Assembly: GCA_001972305.1 (NCBI GenBank)
Contig: BDDD01001807.1
Span: 124,001-188,000, forward strand
Length of the DNA: 64,000 bases
Source: Cephalotus follicularis
Taxonomy: Eukaryota; Streptophyta; Magnoliopsida; Oxalidales; Cephalotaceae
Direction: 5' to 3'
Under the pieces are notes generated by a model. It saw only the letters and a list, made by a program, of their open reading frames with translations. It was not told where the DNA came from and did no database searches. Position 1 is the first letter of the stretch, and each line of letters begins with the position of its first letter. The position numbers and the translations under genes were made by a program. Positions 5,380 through 61,332 of the stretch are shown piece by piece.

Positions 5380-5935
5380 TTTCAATAAAATCGGCTAACC
5401 AAAGAAAGAAGGACATCCGTACGTTTTCCATAAATAAAACTATCTTTTTACTATAAAAATAGTAGGAGGGTGTCAAAGAACGAAACATCCGTACAAAAAC
5501 ATATTTTAATTCATTTTAGTAAGACCGGAGGAATAAGCCAAAGAGCAGAAAATCCGTACGTTATTCATAAAAATATAAAACTGAATTTATTTAGATAAAA
5601 TCGAAGGAGATATCGAAGAACAAAAAATCCGTACGTTATTCATAAAGTAAAACTAACATTTTTACTCTAATAAAATCAATAGGAGCGCCAAAAAAAGAAT
5701 GATCCGTACATAAAATATATTTGCATTCATTTTAGTAAAACCGAAGGAATAAGCCAAGAACGAAGAATCCGTATATTTTCATAAAAACATATAACTGATT
5801 CATTTTTATAAAATCACCAGAGTATATCAAGGAACGAAGATCCGTACAAAATATATTTTAATTCATTTCAGTAAGACCGAAGGGTTAAGCCAAAGAGCAG
5901 AAAATCCGTACCTTAAGCGATCACAAAATAACTTT
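5380..5935 (+). repeat. Imperfect tandem repeat around ATCCGTAC
   Basis: Seven or eight degenerate units of roughly 60-100 bases. Each has a word like AAGAACGAA, then ATCCGTAC, then ATTCATAAA, alternating with TAAGACCGAAGGAATAAGCC-like words. It lies inside the LTR-like block and was read by eye. Confidence 0.6.
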
Positions 5936-46300: not shown

Positions 46301-46301
46301 T

Positions 46302-46505
46302 GGTCAGCCCAGGCACGCTCAGCGCGTCAGCCCAGGAGGGGTCCTCGGCCCGGCCTCTGCCCTTCACCTGGTCAGCCCAGGCACGCTCAGCGCGTCAACC
46401 CAGGAGGGGCCCTCGGCCCGGCCTCTGCCCTTCACCTGGTCAGCCCAGGCACGCTCAGCACATCAGCCCATGAGGGATCCCCAGCCCGGCCTCTTCCCCT
46501 CGCCT
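46302..46505 (+). repeat. 68-bp minisatellite, three units
   Basis: Units at 46302-46369, 46370-46437 and 46438-46505, each starting GGTCAGCCCAGGCACGCTCA. Unit junctions form the palindrome CCTGG-tcagc-CCAGG. GC-rich, unlike the surroundings. Confidence 0.88.
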
Positions 46506-46637
46506 GGCCAGCCCAGGTTGGATCCGCTAGCCGATCCGCGGGAGATCTTCCCCCAGGGGGGCCATCTCGGTCCCGTTTCCTCAACTATGTTCCCCCTCCT
46601 CTGCCACAGACAGAGAAGCAGGACCAGAGGGGGTGTA

Positions 46638-48410: not shown

Positions 48411-49980
48411 TTTTTTTTATGAATAAGGATCCTTTTCTTGAGAAAAACTTATGAATTACAAAGAAATAAAGTAGTGCATGCAACCAAATACATTCATCAG
48501 TATGTTTCCTAGCAGATGACGTTGTGTTATGTGCAAACACATTATCACACATACTAATATGCCTTACAGGACGCTGATTTGATATTCTTAATATCCTCAA
48601 TAACACTCATATAATGCATCATATGTACCTAGTTTATTTATATCATCCACAACAACCCACGCATCCGACTCCACTATTAATATACGGTACCTAAGTATTG
48701 AGGCACAGAGCAATCCATAGTAGACCGCAAATGCTTCCGTCATAGGTGGATCTCTTTGTGGTATAATTTTCCTACTACCCGCAGCTAGGATAATTCTCTT
48801 CGAGTCTCTAAACACCCATCCCACTCCGGAACACTCCCCGTCACTATAGACTGCACCATCACAACTCATACGAACTTCCCCAGGCAAAATAGCATACCAG
48901 GTTTGTCGCCACTGCTCCTCATCCAGGCATTTTCCTGCCACCTCTCTATATTCCTCTATGTGTTGTGAGCATTTTTGTGCCACCAGAGTAGGTGTCATCC
49001 TTTTCCTTCCAGCCTTGCAATTTCGACCACACTATCTTTTATGGATTGGAAAATTATCTTTTTGGAATTACCTACCATTGCCGAAAGACCCAGATAATTT
49101 TCATAATTTTGCTTCAATCTAGTGCCCAATAACGTTCTAATAGATAGTATGGCAGGGGGAGGAGTATTAGGGCTAAAGAACAAACATGTTTTTATCAATA
49201 TTCACTTTCTGGCCAGATGCTAGCTCATACTGGTTCAAGATACCCAAAACCGCTTCACTCTCTTTAACTGTGACTTTGAGGAAAAGCAAATTATCATCTG
49301 CGAAAAACAAATGGGAGATTCTTGGACTTCTATTACAAACTCTCACACCATGTATCTTACCTTGCTCGGCTGCTTTCGTCAAAAGCGTCGATAACCCTTC
49401 TGCACATAAGATAAAAAGATATGGAGATGAAGGATCCCCTTGTCTCAATCACCTCGAAGGAATGATCATATTCTTCGGCTGTGCTGTGCCTATTCAGAAC
49501 AACAGAGTAAGAAACTGTAGACAACCACTCCATAATCAAATGCACCCACCTAACATCAAACCCCATATAAATCAAAATTTCACGCATAAAGTCCCATTTG
49601 ACCCAGTCATAAGCCTTACTCATGTCTAACTTAACAACCATCAAACCTTGACCACCCCCTCTGCGAAGTTTAATATAATGTAATGTTTCAAACGCCACAA
49701 GAATGTTATCAGTTATTAATCGACCCGATACAAAAAGCACTTTGATTATCAGATATAATAACCTGCAAGATATGTTTAAATCTGTTAGCAAGCACTTTAG
49801 AAATAATTTTAAAGGCCATATTACACAAACTAATAGGCTTAAACTATGTCATAATTTTCCAGGTCTTTTACTTTAGGGATGAGAATAATATGAGTAAAAT
49901 TCATTTTACGCTCCATGCGGCCTTCCTGAAAAAATCTCTGAACACCTGAAACCACATAATTAACCACTATATCCCAATAT
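48411..49980 (-). pseudogene. Second LINE, 3' portion (reverse transcriptase, RNase H)
   Basis: Minus strand, with a poly-A tail at 48419-48411. From 49980: reverse transcriptase ([91 protein letters not shown]), spread over at least three frames. Then the thumb (GTRLKQNYENYLGL), and then a plant-LINE RNase H domain at 48998-48597 (MSCDGAVYSDGECSGVGWVF, PPMTEAFAVYYGL, VESDAWVVVDDIN). The zinc-finger region between thumb and RNase H is missing. It is a different family from the LINE at 1-10 kb, which has no RNase H. The 5' continuation is at 60985-61332, across the copia-type insertion. Confidence 0.86.
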
Positions 49981-50429
49981 TGTTAGAAATATTTATAAAA
50001 TATTGGACTTCTATTAATTGTTATTTTTGTTTTATAAAACTGGTAAGATAATGATCCATAAGACAGGCTTATGACAAAATAGCCATTTAGTGATCTATTT
50101 TGTATGGGATGACGCAATTCAAGTTGTAGATGTGAGTTGTAGTTAGTGTGGGCTTTAGTGACCTAATGGGAATAATGGGAAAAATCATTAGTGTTTACTA
50201 TATATATATCGGGCTAGGTCACCTCTCCTGTAACTATCAGTTGTTTTCGATTCACATATAAGAACCACATTTTGTCTGATAAAAAGGAAGGGAATACCTG
50301 TCTGTTTGATCTAGGATCGCACTGATTTTGATATTCCGCTGCACAGTTGAACATGACTCAACCAGGTACGATCCTTACTCATTAATTATTGTGTTCTAAT
50401 GTCGCATATGATCCTATTAATTTTCAACA
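49981..50429 (+). repeat. First LTR of the copia-type element
   Basis: 449 bases, with a TATA-like CTATATATATATC near 50200. Copied exactly in the tandem repeat at 54475-54923. Confidence 0.9.
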
Positions 50430-52297
50430 AGTGGTATAAGAGAGGTTATATGCGAATTAGAACCAATTTGTAGAATTATTATTGAAATTCAAGTTTAAAA
50501 AAAAAAAAATCAGTTTAGTCCCGAAACTTTAACATTAAAATTGAAGATTAAAACGTGAATAATTAGTTTCGATTTCTTCAGGGTTTTTGTTCCTCTCTTT
50601 TCACTATTCGATTTGATATATAGATCATAAGTTTTCATGACCCATAACCCGAGATATCGACCATTGAAATTTTCGGATCCCGAAATCACAAAAAACGATT
50701 GAATCTTGATTTTTTGTCGTTGTTAATCCGTTTTGTGGCTTGATATCTGTTGCTTGCATGTTATGGAACAAAACTGTGCCAATTGATTGCAGTTTAACAG
50801 TGATTTTGTCAGTGAAATCAACCAAAAACCAGTTCGGCGATTAGGGTTCTAAGCCGAATTTTAAAGCTTCGATTTCATGTTTCTTGAGTTGATTTTTTGA
50901 GAAATTTCCTTGGGGGTAACCTTAAACAGACCGTGCGCGTCAAAACCATACCTCAGTCTTCGAATTTGGTGGCCTAGATCACCGATTTGCGTCGGATCGC
51001 AAACTGGGTCGCGTTTCTGGTCTGGCGGGTCGAAATCCATCCGCCAGAGGTTGCTGGCGCATCAACAGTGCACACAGCCATTCCCCACGCGCTTCCATGG
51101 CCCGTTCTGGCGCATGGGCCTCGTTCCGAGAGCCTTTTGGGCCCAAATTTTTGGGTTTTCCCATTTTTCTCCGAAATAAAATTTTTGGTAATTTTTAATT
51201 ATTTTTTCAAATACCAGAAGTATTTATTTCAGAATTATCTTCATAAAAATTAATTTAAAATAGTTAAATACTATTTTTTGTAAAATAATTTTTACGAAAA
51301 TTATTATTATATATGGAGAATCTTTTGACAGTAGTCACTCTTCCTATTTCAATTATTAATCTACTGTACTCTCCAACTTTTGTGTGCTTTAAACTTGTCC
51401 GAATTTTGTACAATTACAACATGGATTGTTGATGATCCAACGAGGTACATTTTGTTACAGTATCTCATTTTGTGGGATCACGTGCATATATTTTGACCAT
51501 AGTATGCACACTTACTTTGTGGGTAAGGTTGTTTATACGTTTCGGTTTGAGTTGATTCTATTTGTTCACGGTTACACCAAAGTGGACCATTCAGGAACTT
51601 TTGGGATTTTCTCATGCTGTCGTTACGGAACGAAATCTGAATTATTACATTAAATTTCCTGCCCAAAGGTGGTTATTTGATGTTTTAATTTGGTGGTTTA
51701 CATGAAACATTTTGTTTAAGGTGTGCATCGGTTTAGAGTGTTTTTCTGCCCAAAGGTGATAAACTATTCGAACATCGATGTATACTCGGTTGTTGGTTTC
51801 ATGTAGGAAATCCTACTTGCATGTTATATTTTTTACCCAAAGGTGATTATATAATGATGCGCCTGAATTTTCGTGATGAATATTGCTTATTTTGTTTCCA
51901 AGCATATTCATATTAAAATTACTCACATTATTGACATGTTGTGATTTTTATTGTTATCTTGACAGTTTGTTTCTCTGTGAATAACATGCCTTGGTTTTTG
52001 CTTTTTTTTTTTCCATTATGCTATTTTTGCATAATTTTCTTGATTTGGTATGATAAGTATGACGTATACGATATTTGACTTTGTTTGAGTATATTATATT
52101 ATGATATGAAGTAAATGAATATCATGATTATTTTTTTTTGTGAGAAAATTAATAGGTTCTTTATATGAATATATGACATATTGAATTTTTTTTTTAATAT
52201 TTAGTCATGCTCAATTTTTTATTTTAACCACATAATATTATACATCATTCGAGTTGACCATTATGCTTACGGTTATATTGTCTCGATATGTTTGTTA

Positions 52298-52341
52298 CTC
52301 ACACATGAAAGTGAGAGAATATGTAATTATTCATGTGTGAG
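52298..52341 (+). repeat. Long perfect hairpin, 12-bp arms
   Basis: CTCACACATGAA (52298-52309) and TTCATGTGTGAG (52330-52341) are exact reverse complements around a 20-base loop. It lies in the non-coding interior and is copied at 56792-56835. Confidence 0.85.
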
Positions 52342-52688
52342 AGTGTGCTTGGCAATGGTTCAAATAGAAATTGTTAAAAATGAAACTTATTACATACATG
52401 CATATTAATATATTAAAATTTATGCATGACTATTACAACATAAATATTGTATATTAAGTGAGGGATTCAATTTCAACTAAAATCCTGGGCATTCCGCCTA
52501 TTGTTTTTGATGCCATCTATTTAGTGATTGAAATGATGATTTTAATCAGTCAGTAAATTACAGATACAATATTTTTGCTGAAACTTCCTTTTAGATTTTA
52601 GACTCATAATATGATGACTTAATTATGAGTATCTATTGAAAGTAATGATTGTATTTTTATTGGAAGTTTTTAGATGGTCATTAATATC

Positions 52689-52758
52689 TATATATGTTTC
52701 GATACATATATCATGAGTTATTGAATAATTCAATAACATGATAAGTTTTACTTATCAT
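52689..52758 (+). repeat. Three consecutive hairpins
   Basis: TATATATGT..ACATATATCA (52689-52712), GTTATTGAAT-AATTCAATAAC (52717-52737) and ATGATAAG-TTTTA-CTTATCAT (52738-52758) stand back to back. Similar small palindromes recur through the interior (for example GTAGGAAATCCTAC at 51803-51816 and GTCCATTTTGGAC near 53600). Confidence 0.75.
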
Positions 52759-53762
52759 TAGTTGAAATTGTGTTTAAATTCTCATTGTGTATAAGTAAGA
52801 AAAGAAAATCTATTAAAATTTTTAAAATATGAATGATCATATTTGTGTAATTGTTTCATTCATATGTGCTAATGACTATCATTCTGTTTGCACTTAACGA
52901 CCTATATGATATACTTTTGAATATGCTTTTGTACGATAATGTTTTGTTACATTTAAGTGTATTGGTGCTATGTCATAATCATAAAGTACAATAGATAGTT
53001 ATCTTAAGTTGAGAGTTTTGAGTACGCTATAATTTTGTTGATATAGCATATGCGCTCAACTATAGGGTTTTTATGTTGAATAATGCTTCTTGATTTATTT
53101 GATTAAGCTTGAGACTGTGGTAAACATCATACTTATAGATACACATTAGTGTGTGGTGCATTCTTTGTATTTATAAGCTAAAACATGAATTATTATGGAC
53201 ACATATTTTTGTTCATTGATGTCCATGAGAATATTTGAAGCATTATTATGAGATTTTTGGTTAACCTATTTTTCTGATATCCTACTGCGTGTTACAATCT
53301 CTGCCCAAAGGTGAGATTTTAACCAAATCATTGTATATTAATGTTATGGATTTTATAGTTGACCTATGTTGGATAATTCTACTGCAAGCTGCATTCTCTG
53401 CCCAAATGTGAGGTTGCAGTCAATGCATTAGGAGTCTCATTGAGTATCTTTCGTTATTACGAAATCAATGGATTGTCATCACCAATTTTGATTATATGAA
53501 TGTTTAAGTCTGATCTATGATGAATCTACTGTATAATTTGTTATTGGATGATAATTGCCTTTGCAATTTTGTGTGATTTGTCACATGAGTCTATTTTGGT
53601 TCATAAGTCCATTTTGGACGATATAAAAATATTGTGTCTTATTGTTATTGTGTCAAATAAAATTGACTCCTCATTTTTAACACTTCAATAGGTCTTATGT
53701 AATTTATTTTAAAGAAAGTTTGGATGTGTTGTATCAATCATTTTGGGATTGATTGTGCTAGT

Positions 53763-56700
53763 AGTGACTTTGAGGAAAAGCAAATTATCATCTGCGAAAA
53801 ACAAATGGGAGATTCTTGGACTTCTATTACAAACTCTCACACCATGTATCTTACCTTGCTCGGCTGCTTTCGTCAAAAGCGTCGATAACCCTTCTGCACA
53901 TAAGATAAAAAGATATGGAGATGAAGGATCCCCTTGTCTCAATCACCTCGAAGGAATGATCATATTCTTCGGCTGTGCTGTGCCTATTCAGAACAACAGA
54001 GTAAGAAACTGTGGACAACCACTCCATAATCAAATGCACCCACCTAACATCAAACCCCATATAAATCAAAATTTCACGCATAAAGTCCCATTTGACCCAG
54101 TCATAAGCCTTACTCATGTCTAACTTAACAACCATCAAACCTTGACCACCCCCTCTGCGAAGTTTAATATAATGTAATGTTTCAAACGCCACAAGAATGT
54201 TATCAGTTATTAATCGACCCGATACAAAAAGCACTTTGATTATCAGATATAATAACCTGCAAGATATGTTTAAATCTGTTAGCAAGCACTTTAGAAATAA
54301 TTTTAAAGGCCATATTACACAAACTAATAGGCTTAAACTATGTCATAATTTTCCAGGTCTTTTACTTTAGGGATGAGAATAATATGAGTAAAATTCATTT
54401 TACGCTCCATGCGGCCTTCCTGAAAAAATCTCTGAACACCTGAAACCACATAATTAACCACTATATCCCAATATTGTTAGAAATATTTATAAAATATTGG
54501 ACTTCTATTAATTGTTATTTTTGTTTTATAAAACTGGTAAGATAATGATCCATAAGACAGGCTTATGACAAAATAGCCATTTAGTGATCTATTTTGTATG
54601 GGATGACGCAATTCAAGTTGTAGATGTGAGTTGTAGTTAGTGTGGGCTTTAGTGACCTAATGGGAATAATGGGAAAAATCATTAGTGTTTACTATATATA
54701 TATCGGGCTAGGTCACCTCTCCTGTAACTATCAGTTGTTTTCGATTCACATATAAGAACCACATTTTGTCTGATAAAAAGGAAGGGAATACCTGTCTGTT
54801 TGATCTAGGATCGCACTGATTTTGATATTCCGCTGCACAGTTGAACATGACTCAACCAGGTACGATCCTTACTCATTAATTATTGTGTTCTAATGTCGCA
54901 TATGATCCTATTAATTTTCAACAAGTGGTATAAGAGAGGTTATATGCGAATTAGAACCAATTTGTAGAATTATTATTGAAATTCAAGTTTAAAAAAAAAA
55001 AAATCAGTTTAGTCCCGAAACTTTAACATTAAAATTGAAGATTAAAACGTGAATAATTAGTTTCGATTTCTTCAGGGTTTTTGTTCCTCTCTTTTCACTA
55101 TTCGATTTGATATATAGATCATAAGTTTTCATGACCCATAACCCGAGATATCGACCATTGAAATTTTCGGATCCCGAAATCACAAAAAACGATTGAATCT
55201 TGATTTTTTGTCGTTGTTAATCCGTTTTGTGGCTTGATATCTGTTGCTTGCATGTTATGGAACAAAACTGTGCCAATTGATTGCAGTTTAACAGTGATTT
55301 TGTCAGTGAAATCAACCAAAAACCAGTTCGGCGATTAGGGTTCTAAGCCGAATTTTAAAGCTTCGATTTCATGTTTCTTGAGTTGATTTTTTGAGAAATT
55401 TCCTTGGGGGTAACCTTAAACAGACCGTGCGCATCAAAACCATACCTCAGACTTCGAATTTGGTGGCCTGGATCACCGGTTTGCGTCGGATCGCAAACCG
55501 GGTCGCGTTTCTGGTCTGGCGGGTCGAAATCGACCCGCCAGAGGTTGCTGGCGCATCAACAGTGCACACAGCCATTCCCCACGCGCTTCCATGGCCCGTT
55601 CTGGCGCATGGGCCTCGTTCCGAGAGCCTTTTGGGCCCAAATTTTTGGGTTTTCCCATTTTTCTCCGAAATAAAATTTTTGGTAATTTTTAATTATTTTT
55701 TCAAATACCAGAAGTATTTATTTCAGAATTATCTTCATAAAAATTAATTTAAAATAGTTAAATACTATTTTTTGTAAAATAATTTTTACGAAAATTATTA
55801 TTATATATGGAGAATCTTTTGACAGTAGTCACTCTTCCTATTTCAATTATTAATCTACTGTACTCTCCAACTTTTGTGTGCTTTAAACTTGTCCGAATTT
55901 TGTACAATTACAACATGGATTGTTGATGATCCAACGAGGTACATTTTGTTACAGTATCTCATTTTGTGGGATCACGTGCATATATTTTGACCATAGTATG
56001 CACACTTACTTTGTGGGTAAGGTTGTTTATACGTTTCGGTTTGAGTTGATTCTATTTGTTCACGGTTACACCAAAGTGGACCATTCAGGAACTTTTGGGA
56101 TTTTCTCATGCTGTCGTTACGGAACGAAATCTGAATTATTACATTAAATTTCCTGCCCAAAGGTGGTTATTTGATGTTTTAATTTGGTGGTTTACATGAA
56201 ACATTTTGTTTAAGGTGTGCATCGGTTTAGAGTGTTTTTCTGCCCAAAGGTGATAAACTATTCGAACATCGATGTATACTCGGTTGTTGGTTTCATGTAG
56301 GAAATCCTACTTGCATGTTATATTTTTTACCCAAAGGTGATTATATAATGATGCGCCTGAATTTTCGTGATGAATATTGCTTATTTTGTTTCCAAGCATA
56401 TTCATATTAAAATTACTCACATTATTGACATGTTGTGATTTTTATTGTTATCTTGACAGTTTGTTTCTCTGTGAATAACATGCCTTGGTTTTTGCTTTTT
56501 TTTTTTCCATTATGCTATTTTTGCATAATTTTCTTGATTTGGTATGATAAGTATGACGTATACGATATTTGACTTTGTTTGAGTATATTATATTATGATA
56601 TGAAGTAAATGAATATCATGATTATTTTTTTTTGTGAGAAAATTAATAGGTTCTTTATATGAATATATGACATATTGAATTTTTTTTTTAATATTTAGTC

Positions 56701-58256
56701 ATGCTCAATTTTTTATTTTAACCACATAATATTATACATCATTCGAGTTGACCATTATGCTTACGGTTATATTGTCTCGATATGTTTGTTACTCACACAT
56801 GAAAGTGAGAGAATATGTAATTATTCATGTGTGAGAGTGTGCTTGGCAATGGTTCAAATAGAAATTGTTAAAAATGAAACTTATTACATACATGCATATT
56901 AATATATTAAAATTTATGCATGACTATTACAACATAAATATTGTATATTAAGTGAGGGATTCAATTTCAACTAAAATCCTGGGCATTCCGCCTATTGTTT
57001 TTGATGCCATCTATTTAGTGATTGAAATGATGATTTTAATCAGTCAGTAAATTACAGATACAATATTTTTGCTGAAACTTCCTTTTAGATTTTAGACTCA
57101 TAATATGATGACTTAATTATGAGTATCTATTGAAAGTAATGATTGTATTTTTATTGGAAGTTTTTAGATGGTCATTAATATCTATATATGTTTCGATACA
57201 TATATCATGAGTTATTGAATAATTCAATAACATGATAAGTTTTACTTATCATTAGTTGAAATTGTGTTTAAATTCTCATTGTGTATAAGTAAGAAAAGAA
57301 AATCTATTAAAATTTTTAAAATATGAATGATCATATTTGTGTAATTGTTTCATTCATATGTGCTAATGACTATCATTCTGTTTGCACTTAACGACCTATA
57401 TGATATACTTTTGAATATGCTTTTGTACGATAATGTTTTGTTACATTTAAGTGTATTGGTGCTATGTCATAATCATAAAGTACAATAGATAGTTATCTTA
57501 AGTTGAGAGTTTTGAGTACGCTATAATTTTGTTGATATAGCATATGCGCTCAACTATAGGGTTTTTATGTTGAATAATGCTTCTTGATTTATTTGATTAA
57601 GCTTGAGACTGTGGTAAACATCATACTTATAGATACACATTAGTGTGTGGTGCATTCTTTGTATTTATAAGCTAAAACATGAATTATTATGGACACATAT
57701 TTTTGTTCATTGATGTCCATGAGAATATTTGAAGCATTATTATGAGATTTTTGGTTAACCTATTTTTCTGATATCCTACTGCGTGTTACAATCTCTGCCC
57801 AAAGGTGAGATTTTAACCAAATCATTGTATATTAATGTTATGGATTTTATAGTTGACCTATGTTGGATAATTCTACTGCAAGCTGCATTCTCTGCCCAAA
57901 TGTGAGGTTGCAGTCAATGCATTAGGAGTCTCATTGAGTATCTTTCGTTATTACGAAATCAATGGATTGTCATCACCAATTTTGATTATATGAATGTTTA
58001 AGTCTGATCTATGATGAATCTACTGTATAATTTGTTATTGGATGATAATTGCCTTTGCAATTTTGTGTGATTTGTCACATGAGTCTATTTTGGTTCATAA
58101 GTCCATTTTGGACGATATAAAAATATTGTGTCTTATTGTTATTGTGTCAAATAAAATTGACTCCTCATTTTTAACACTTCAATAGGTCTTATGTAATTTA
58201 TTTTAAAGAAAGTTTGGATGTGTTGTATCAATCATTTTGGGATTGATTGTGCTAGT
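53763..58256. repeat. Tandem duplication, unit 2 (4,494 bp)
   Basis: Copy of 49269-53762. It contains a LINE fragment (53763-54474, minus strand, RT part), the middle LTR (54475-54923) and interior with the five hairpins at +4,494. After 58256 the interior continues uniquely. Confidence 0.92.
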
Positions 58257-60528
58257 AATTATGTTTTTAAACATTTATTGTTATCCAAACTTTCAGCGGT
58301 ATTAATCTAGTATTAGTTATTATCATTTATTTGATCAACCGTTTTCGTACATAAAGACATTTGATTATTGTTTCTTTTAAAAGCCATTGATAAAATTAAA
58401 GAGTTGAATTTTTTTTAAAAGAAAGAAGAGTTCTAAAAAATAATAAAGATTTATAATTACCAATGAATAGTTGAATTTGTCGACTATGTTTTGAATTATT
58501 TTTTCTTAGTTCTTTTCAAATCGATTATTTTTATCTATCTTATTTTGAAACTTTATAAATTTATCTTTTGTTATTTAGATATGAAAAATTTATAAAAATG
58601 TATCTTCTGATATAAATTTGTTTCAACTCTTATTTTGTAAAGGATGATCGAATAAAATGATTTTGTATTGCATCAAGATTATGAAATTTTGAAACAATTT
58701 AGAGGTAAATATTTTGTGAACAACTCTTTATACATTTTAAGATTTGTGTGTATAAACTGTTGATATTCCAATTGAATCCTTTTGGAAAAATGTTTACGCA
58801 CCTTAAAAATTCACGTATATTTTGTGTTTATTGTGTTTATCCTTTGTGTGTAAGCATCTTGATGCTTTTAGTGATGCATAAAATCAGTGGGAGTGTGGAG
58901 TAATGTATCACCTCATGATAGTCATTATTTTGACAATCATTATTTTGACGATTGAGTTAAAATTGAAATATTTTTCAATTTTTAGTGTTTGACACTTTTG
59001 TGATAACTCTTGAAAAAATATGTGAAGGCATAAGTTATTATACATATACTAAGTTTAGTCTAACACTTGTTTGTTAGACAATGTTGTGTAATAAACTTTA
59101 AAAGAGAAATATTATTTATTTCTTATTGCGTTGTCTAATCAGACTTGTTATGGTGATTATTAGATCAAGAAATTAAGCCAATTATGTTTTATTTTGAATC
59201 TCAGTGAAGAGATAATTTAGGCTTTCATGATGCACTTGATCTGTGAGAGTTATTTCCTTTGTCATAACTGTGTGATGACATATCCATTTATATTATTGTT
59301 GACAACCATAATGGTTGGTGATCATGTACCTATGTGGTATAAAAGGTTTCCGTGACTTTCGTAATGATACCACCTTTGTTAATAAAAGTCGCTTTATGGA
59401 TAGTCATCTCTTTTCTGTGTAATTGATGACTTAACTCTGTTATTTGTGCACGTAATGTTTGTTTTTACTTGTGAGCTCACATCATTTAAAGTCTTAAGAT
59501 CCTAGGCATGCCAATATCGTCGTATTGAAAATCCTCGAGGTACTAATTTTTAATTTCTTAAGCATGATTATTTTGTCACAAACGTTGATGACTTTAAGGT
59601 ATTACCTTATATATTAAGTGTGACAATATAGTTTCAGTGTTCTATACAAAGAATATGAAGTATTCATATGGTGCTATGTACATCATCAATCTTAATTTTT
59701 TTTAAGGTTATAAAATGGGTTAAGCATAGTATGCTGTCTTTGATCACATTACCACTATGGATATGATTGCTTGCCTTTGATTAAAGGACTTGAGCCGTCT
59801 GATTTTGTTAGACATGTTGATAAAATGAACATTATAAGTTTCTTTGATGTACTTTAACAATGGGAGTTTAGCATATGTATGTTGGACTTTATATGTCATG
59901 TTGTTTCCATATGCTCTGTTGTGAACTCCCATATTTAGATTTATGATTTTATGATAATTGAGGATTATCATTTTTGTTACTGTTTATCATATATCCTGAT
60001 TATGTGCACATTTGTGTTTATGACATGTCATTTGCATAAACTCTTGAGACTGGTGTCTGTCTTAAGCATGTTGTGTATGTCTCTTGATGACACATTTTAT
60101 GATCCATAGATATTTTGATCGAGACATACTCGCTTCCTTGGGAAGTCTTGGGATTTCTTATTTTGTTCAGATAAATCAGATTTCTCATTTTGTTTCAGAG
60201 AAATCGAGGACCGACAATGAATAACATGTTTTGAGATCACATTTTGTATGTTGTTTCATTGCCACACTACCACATCTAGATCCATGTCAGTAGAGTTGTT
60301 GGCATATGTAACCATGGATGGTCTTGTGTTAATGACGACATAAAGACGCTATGATTCTATGTTTGATGGCTTTATGGGACCGGATCATTTATGAAGTGAT
60401 TGTCTCACGATCATGTTTTAAAACTATGGCGCCAATGATTTAAAATTTTGTCATTCTACCAGAGAGTCGTTTTCTAAACTGTTTTCCAAATTTTTAAAAC
60501 TACAATTAATGTTGCCCAAGTGAGAGAA
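58257..60528 (+). other. 3' interior of the copia-type element
   Basis: AT-rich with no coding frame and many short inverted words (for example TAGTTGA..TCGACTA near 58478, and repeated ATCATTATTTTGAC near 58925-58965). It ends in the purine-rich tract AAGTGAGAGAA at 60518-60528. I found no sixth CCCAAAGGT hairpin, though TTGCCCAAGTGAG at 60512-60524 resembles the loop. Confidence 0.6.
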
Positions 60529-60979
60529 TGTTAGAAATATTTATAAAATATTGGGCTTCCATTAATTGTTATTTTTGTTTTATAAAACTGGTAGGATAAT
60601 GATCCGTGAGACGAGCTTATGGCCCAATAGCCCTTTAGTGATCTATTTTGTATGGGTTAACGCACTTCAGGTTGTAGATGTGAGTTGTGGTTAGTGTGGG
60701 CTTTAGTGACCTAATGGGCATGATGGGAAGGCTCATTAGTGTTTACTATATATATATATCGGGTTAGGTCCCCTCTCCTGTCACTATCAGTTGTTTTCGA
60801 TTCTCATATAAGAACCACATTTTGTCTGGTGAAAAAGAGGGGAAGACCTGTCTGTTTGATCTAGGATCGCACTGATTTTGATATTCCGCTGCACAGTTGA
60901 ACATGGCTCAATCAGGTACAATCATTACTCATTAATTATTGTGTTCTAATATCACATATGATCCTATTAATTTTCAACA
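60529..60979 (+). repeat. Last LTR of the copia-type element
   Basis: 451 bases, TGTTAGAAATATT to TTTTCAACA, followed by the target duplication AATAT. It differs from the first LTR at roughly 37 positions by eye, including a 2-base AT-repeat difference. Confidence 0.9.
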
Positions 60980-60984
60980 AATAT

Positions 60985-61332
60985 TTTTTATAAAAAAAGC
61001 AGACATGTCATCAGGCCTTGGGGCTTTGGTTGGATGCATTTGATTAAGAGCTTTTTTATTTCCTTCAGAGAACGTCTGTAGAAGCTTCTTATTCATCTTA
61101 GATGTCATTGACTATTTGACTGCATCCCTAAAGCTCTCTATACCCATAGAGCCCCGAGAAGTAAATATATCATGGAAATAGGAATCGACTAAATTCGATA
61201 TGCCTTCTTCGGCAGTCACCAGCCTACCGTCCTCATTTATCAAGCCACTGATTGTGTTTCTCTTCATTCTTTGATTGACTTTTGCATGGAAAAAAGCCGT
61301 GTTGCGATCTCCTTCTCTCAGCCAAGACACTA
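60985..61332 (-). pseudogene. Second LINE, 5' piece across the insertion
   Basis: Minus strand: SWLREGDRNTAFFHAKVNQR, TISGLINEDGRLVTAEEG, a stop near 61112, then LNQMHPTKAPRPDDMSAFFI up to the insertion point. This is the endonuclease-RT linker and the first RT motif (KAPGPDG-type, here KAPRPDD). It joins in order to 49980 across the copia-type element. The LINE is 5'-truncated near 61332. Confidence 0.85.

Follow-up and report, generated by a model that had tools for sequence, protein, structure and literature searches.

Why should an LTR element that encodes neither gag nor pol carry five RNA hairpins with almost the same loop, and what could such hairpins do? The question was raised by a window of Cephalotus follicularis DNA (the whole stretch analysed, 64,000 nucleotides of contig BDDD01001807.1), in which an earlier note, made from the sequence alone, had claimed five hairpins with a fixed loop and variable stems. 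All five were found with RNAfold and a covariance model. On the forward strand they occupy positions 51647–51683 (H1), 51734–51770 (H2), 51821–51857 (H3), 53289–53325 (H4), and 53386–53422 (H5). Since a stretch of 4494 bp is doubled, the hairpins recur at 56141–57916 (56141–56177, 56228–56264, 56315–56351, 57783–57819, and 57880–57916, respectively). The covariance model gave ten matches in the 64-kb window, i.e., five hairpins in each of two tandem copies, and no further match at E up to 10.

The hairpin module is 37 nt long. H1, H2, and H3 are spaced by 87 nt; H4 and H5 are spaced by 97 nt and are located 1.47 kb beyond H1–H3. According to RNAfold, H1–H4 form a long lower stem with one bulged base on the 5' side, followed by GCC–GGU pairs and a CAAA tetraloop. 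H5 of the window copy, with AAATGT, had an open loop in the fold. H3 of the window has TACCC where its relatives mostly show TGCCC. The innermost C–G pair of the upper stem was unpaired (C–T or other) in 11 of the 31 rows of alignment A1. The next pair outward (C–G, U–G, or U–A) was intact in every row of A1 and of alignment A2, and was disrupted in 6 of 144 rows of a larger hairpin set. Rfam covariance models yielded no match at E up to 1 across positions 49900–61100.

The hairpins lie in a copia-type LTR element (49976–60984, forward strand), which is flanked at both outer ends by the 5-bp target duplication AATAT and is enlarged in tandem; once the 4494-bp duplication is discounted, its length is about 6.5 kb. 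The tandem units (49270–53763 and 53764–58257) are 99.8% identical, with 8 mismatches, and may represent a true duplication or an assembly artefact. The duplication (49270–58257) takes in flanking LINE-like DNA and most of the LTR element. Shorter tandem repeats of about 68 bp (46301–46517) and about 210 bp (5396–5915) were also observed in the window. On the forward strand, the left LTR is located at 49981–50429 (second tandem copy 54475–54923) and the right LTR, 91.6% identical to it, at 60529–60979. Ty1/copia features of the element are LTRs with TG..CA ends, the 5-bp target duplication, and a decayed primer binding site, AGTGGTATAAGAGAGG, recognised by reading the sequence at 50430–50445 (forward strand). 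We take this site to be of the initiator-tRNA type, which it resembles. An interior at 56480–59618 replaces gag-pol, and only its hairpin units matched the coding relatives L065 and L073 in blastn; it is followed at 59619–60528 by a 3' part, stretching from the pol end as far as the right LTR, that is shared with L073 (both on the forward strand). In Pfam searches of the three forward frames of 54925–60528, with stops read as X, there were no matches at E up to 1. The element thus has the large interior without gag or pol of the LARD type in these three frames, where the claim of an element lacking recognisable gag and pol held.

Coding relatives sharing the LTR and hairpins, which the earlier note had proposed to look for, do exist, and they share the leader as well. 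A pattern designed to avoid the window family, RTCTGCCCAAAGGTGAY, was found in 21 places, with the outer positions A..T in 19, G..T in 2, and A..C in none. Five fetched copies were 75–85% identical to the window element across the longest matched stretch. In L065, the same leader is followed by an open frame of 438 aa with Retrotran_gag_2 and Pol_BBD and a zinc knuckle scoring below the Pfam cut-off. Its downstream piece, L073, contains gag_pre-integrase, an integrase core (below the cut-off), SH3, and RVT_2, and its 3' end and LTR are those of the window element (84.7% identity). The pair L067/L074 shares this domain order, with Pol_BBD below the cut-off; in L074 the integrase core had no match, and the match to the shared 3' end covered only 103 bp. 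Both L065/L073 and L067/L074 have the integrase before the reverse transcriptase and after a copia-type gag, as in Ty1/copia. No coding domain above the curated cut-off was detected in L062 (both strands) or in L066, L068, and L069 (one strand each), L066 having one weak match below it. In L064 (C523:219363–227862), a second LTR-leader copy directly follows the first element, as in a tandem LTR array. Judged from shared sequence, the window element is a derivative of this coding copia family (family 1), because the parts up to the gag start and from the end of pol are common to both. Between them lie 3.1 kb of other DNA carrying H4 and H5.

A query of 200 residues of the L065 Gag, for which the best 150 of 7928 candidates were scored, gave identities among the matches listed of mostly 68–100%, followed by a step to a large group at 48–54%. 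This group constitutes a second copia family (family 2), with a Gag about 50% identical to that of family 1. Leaders upstream of gag were fetched from both families (11 and 9, respectively), and hairpins were counted, at most three substitutions being allowed in the 11-nt word. All 20 leaders contained at least two hairpins. In family 1, three were present in 10 of 11 leaders and two in L098; in family 2, seven of the nine leaders had three, L108 had two, and L109 had four. Measured from the end of the fetched piece, H1, H2, and H3 lie at −320 to −347, −252 to −261, and −165 to −174 in family 1 and at about −336, −250, and −163 in most pieces of family 2, so that the last hairpin is found about 130–150 nt upstream of the conserved Gag start. 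Among 100 listed triple arrays, at least 18 were located 133–150 nt upstream of a listed gag match on the same strand, except for one of these 18 at 334 nt, where the gag match starts late. One of the four units of L109 (C6813:9602–10321) has its 5' arm from H2 and its 3' arm from H1, as though units had recombined inside their common loop word.

Eight control leaders were taken from the best Retrotran_gag_2 matches (best 150 of 30,099 candidates; 117–143 bits vs. 44 for L065), which appear to represent other copia lineages. The hairpin was absent from all eight, both by word plus fold and by the model; in seven of them a primer binding site was seen by eye within about 100 nt of the gag start. 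In L073 and L074, which hold pol and the 3' part, model R1 had no match. H1–H3 are the standard leader array of coding copia families, and only H4 and H5 are extra in the window element; the array did not originate in the non-coding element. A coding role was also considered, since one frame of the loop word translates as LPKG and the 87-nt spacing is divisible by three; it was ruled out because every one of the 20 leaders has stops in each of the three frames on the way from H1 to gag.

H4 with its flanks resembles the H2–spacer–H3 block (86% in the best match, which is 37 bp long, E 5e-05), and for this reason the leader array is the probable source of H4 and H5. The counter-case named in the earlier note, a short repeat bringing its own flanks, thus applies to the H4 unit, but the stems have been kept paired.

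Pairing of the stems was assessed at several levels. Consensus sequences of eight hairpin classes agree at 9–11 of 11 loop positions, which bears out the near-constant loop, although the word is partly paired in H1–H4 (GCC–GGU around CAAA) rather than wholly a loop. Between the two copia families, the arms agree at 2–6 of 10 positions. Within the element they are not completely different, as had been stated, and agree at 6–8 of 10 (7 and 6 between the H4 and H5 consensi, 7 and 8 between those of H1 and H3); yet they do pair. The eight class consensi pair with their own arms at 62 of 80 positions, and only 5 of 40,320 permutations of the 3' arms, true order included, pair as well; in the underlying file the hairpins were taken by position, H4 and H5 were split by the letters of one pair, and 4 of 58 rows were lost. 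The covariation score of A1 was 0.436, compared to 0.237 in shuffled versions (sd 0.018; 0/500 as high) and 0.115–0.186 in slid ones; this alignment is partly hand-picked (32 rows chosen by script, six dropped, including the L109 chimera, and five added, two of which were chosen because they show paired changes). Family 1 alone scored 0.384, against 0.198 shuffled and 0.076–0.194 slid.

Because of the selection in A1 and in the class file, the count was repeated on 166 distinct rows without those choices. In this set 76.5% of cells were paired, compared to 64.8% after shuffling and at most 46.0% after sliding, and the covariation score was 0.422, compared to 0.223 shuffled (the largest of 200 being 0.249) and 0.096–0.197 slid. 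The result was the same without the pair that splits H4 from H5. Hairpins with indels were left out (6, 2, 6, 3, and 0 for H1 to H5). Paired cells, double-change cells, and the covariation score all exceeded every shuffled and slid version, so the earlier proposal of an RNA element used several times, with covarying stems around a constant loop, is supported in the larger set as well. No excess was found in the number of pairs with any double change, either in A1 (12 vs. 11.0 shuffled; 174/500 as high) or in the 166 rows (13 vs. 13.1), and pair types in A1 showed no clear excess over shuffles (44/500 as high). Related rows inflate the scores; it is therefore the comparison between families that carries the weight. 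Individual exchanges include A–U for U–A within the stem of L079 H1 and, between H4 and H5 of the window, U–A to C–G and A–U to G–C, the second of which is mostly G–U in relatives. Model R2, trained on family 1 with family 2 held out, detected the family 2 H3 in all nine leaders (15.9–21.3 bits, E 0.0046–0.16) and in none of them H1 or H2; a sequence-only model gave six partial matches in three leaders, with 9.3 bits at most. A one-position shift of the lower stem left H3 of family 2 with just 2 of 10 pairs in the fixed-register test; in RNAfold this hairpin is well paired.

The frequency of the module was estimated in the genome as a whole (1.58 Gb, 9746 contigs). The exact word TCTGCCCAAAGGTGA occurred 471 times and its reversed version not once. 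The bare word CCCAAAGGT with one mismatch allowed was mildly enriched in the window (28 vs. 18.4 expected). With the H1–H3 stretch as query, the best 40 of 409 candidates showed 95–100% identity, and with the H4–H5 stretch the best 40 of 307 showed 92–100%. Three CCCAAAGG words at gaps of 62–92 nt were found in 272 places, compared to 46 for the reversed pattern. Among 80 triple arrays listed with their letters, 74 start, by eye, with stems of the two copia families; the other six, on C70 (three), C81 (one), and C340 (two), have other stems. An array of CCCAAAGG with an 87-bp period and stems of neither family at C70:666376–666731 may belong to a third family or be a simple tandem repeat. The pattern with very short spacers was not found in the genome. 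Spacers of 44–73 nt gave three places, all of them indel variants of the window family and none a separate family.

The leader with its primer site and hairpins is predicted to be an intron whose donor lies in the LTR and whose acceptor is at the gag start. In the window element the predicted first exon (50353–50365, forward strand) runs from ATG to CCAG, with the donor CCAG/GTACGA inside the LTR, and the predicted intron (50366–51965, forward strand; second copy 54860–56459) holds the primer binding site and H1–H3. In both families an LTR ATG is followed 10 or 13 bases later by the donor word (CCAG/GTACGA or CAAG/GTACGA), shortly upstream of the primer binding site, and the acceptor word at the gag start is GACAG/T or TACAG/T. 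Across the predicted junction, both families read a short start followed, in the Gag frame, by V-x-FSVNNN. In 28 family 1 LTR matches, some of which are overlapping loci, the donor GT was kept in 27, the AG before it in 22, and the ATG in only 21; one of the two family 2 LTRs has CAAT/GT and has lost the AG before GT. The acceptor AG was kept in 18 of 20 leaders. Nine of the 11 family 1 leaders could be resolved between the last stop and the conserved residues: seven (L091–L096 and L099) have no in-frame ATG there, and L098 and L100 have one. In family 2 (five of nine resolved), it was absent in L104 and L106, and one was present in L105, L108, and L110. An in-frame ATG stands right after FSVNNN in family 2, so that the splice may be dispensable for a start there. 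The predicted intron is not enriched in T (37.4%, compared to 35.1–42.3% in its surroundings). The hairpins H1–H3 lie 108–318 nt upstream of the predicted acceptor. H4 and H5 are located 1.3 kb beyond it, outside the predicted intron, and would still be carried by a spliced RNA of the window element.

Taken together, the array is very probably a functional RNA element of the genomic transcript. For its function we favour, at an even chance, a packaging mark of the unspliced genomic RNA that would be read by Gag. This reading is preferred because the array lies beside gag (the leader location expected of a packaging signal, present in 20 of 20 leaders of two families), has a constant loop, is restricted to some copia families, would be lost on splicing, and is kept with two extra copies in a non-coding element. 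The hairpins would then be a modular mark on the genomic transcript of a plant copia group. Spliced RNA would make the Gag polyprotein, and the unspliced genomic RNA alone is predicted to keep the primer site and the hairpins. Gag of the element may read the loops, several per RNA, and thereby package the unspliced RNA, and the window element, without gag or pol, may be packaged by particles of its coding relatives. A fuller scheme is more tentative: splicing would both supply the Gag start codon and remove the packaging mark, Gag would bind several loops at once, and non-autonomous descendants, having acquired modules beyond the intron, would compete for particles even after splicing.

Leader hairpins of retroelements can also serve export, splicing, dimerisation, and translation. 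The constitutive transport elements of some retroviruses are a model for the export of unspliced, intron-bearing RNA. A host export factor could likewise use the hairpins to take such RNA out of the nucleus; retention of the predicted intron and the presence of one structure in several copies would suit this function, and structured export elements in mouse LTR elements, as well as a structured leader used by a plant pararetrovirus, have been described (PMC12786077, in excerpt). We consider it unlikely, as the extra copies in a gag-less element and the restriction to one group agree at least equally well with a reader that the element itself encodes. It is less probable still that the hairpins restrain splicing and so keep part of the RNA at full length. 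Their position within the predicted intron of both families agrees with such a control; it is the loop that is constant, however, rather than mere structure, and H4 and H5 lie far beyond the acceptor. Dimerisation through kissing loops, or through strand exchange between identical hairpins, is similarly improbable. Two copies can pair with each other through the GCC and GGU of their loop words, and kissing hairpins of Ty1 serve both dimerisation and packaging (PMC5454406, in excerpt), but the loss of the innermost C–G pair in 11 of 31 rows leaves a self-complementary core that is both short and unconserved.

A neutral reading, in which a functionless tandem repeat of some 87 bp folds by chance, is very improbable and largely refuted already. 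The units do have common flanks, L109 has four units, one of them chimeric (5' arm of H2, 3' arm of H1), another CCCAAAGG array with an 87-bp period occurs on C70, and the counts of double-change pairs do not exceed those of shuffles (12 vs. 11.0; 13 vs. 13.1). A neutral repeat, however, accounts neither for paired cells, double-change cells, and covariation scores above every shuffle and slide nor for the same place in two families with Gag proteins about 50% identical. Control of translation by the leader, through internal entry or start-site choice, can hardly be expected: the array is indeed just upstream of gag, but the non-coding window elements retain it, and no data point toward translation.

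The packaging reading can be compared with several known systems. The retroviral packaging signal (psi) sits downstream of the major splice donor. Common to psi and the present array are leader hairpins near gag whose loss on splicing is predicted here; the array differs in that a single module recurs, its loop word being fixed and its stems free, and it is a putative packaging signal. MS2-type coat-protein hairpins consist of a stem with a bulged base, a short upper stem, and a fixed tetraloop, the lower stem being free. The likeness to our module is one of design only, and no homology is claimed.

At the 5' terminus of Ty1, kissing hairpins are needed for dimerisation and packaging (PMC5454406, in excerpt). 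In both systems, the 5' end of a copia-superfamily RNA carries hairpins; Ty1 has two, with complementary loops and within a pseudoknot, in contrast to the three to five alike loops described here, which recur at intervals of about 87 nt in a leader longer than 1 kb. In barley, BARE2 lacks Gag and is thought to be packaged by its coding relative BARE1; the same source (PMC3735527, in excerpt) describes separate RNA pools and splicing in these copia elements, and names conserved dimerisation and packaging signals for BARE2. A Gag-less element with a presumed coding helper and splicing in a copia element are thus common to both cases, but the BARE intron is at the end of gag and the one predicted here is in the leader. 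Fungal GalEa copia elements have a conserved hairpin in the non-coding 5' part, too: their Conserved Hairpin Site is one hairpin directly after the LTR that replaces the primer binding site, with a conserved stem and a variable loop (PMC5445492, in excerpt). Here the reverse applies to stem and loop, three to five hairpins are separated from the LTR by more than 1.2 kb, and the LTR of family 2 is followed by TGGTATCAGAG, unlike in GalEa. Sireviruses, likewise plant copia elements, have palindromic motifs that recur in their non-coding parts; these are DNA palindromes with a CGG–CCG core, mainly in the 3' LTR (PMC2829016, in excerpt), and not constant-loop hairpins in the leader.

In the accessible portions of the open-access literature searched (including PMC2576258, PMC6317226, and PMC10578108), no report of a hairpin array of this kind in copia leaders was found, and the loop word occurred only within strings of letters in papers that, by their titles, are unrelated. 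Leader hairpins as such are already known; their modular form with identical loops in plant copia elements appears to be new. With its fixed loop, free stems, and multiple copies per RNA, the 37-nt module offers a tag linking non-coding elements to their helpers.
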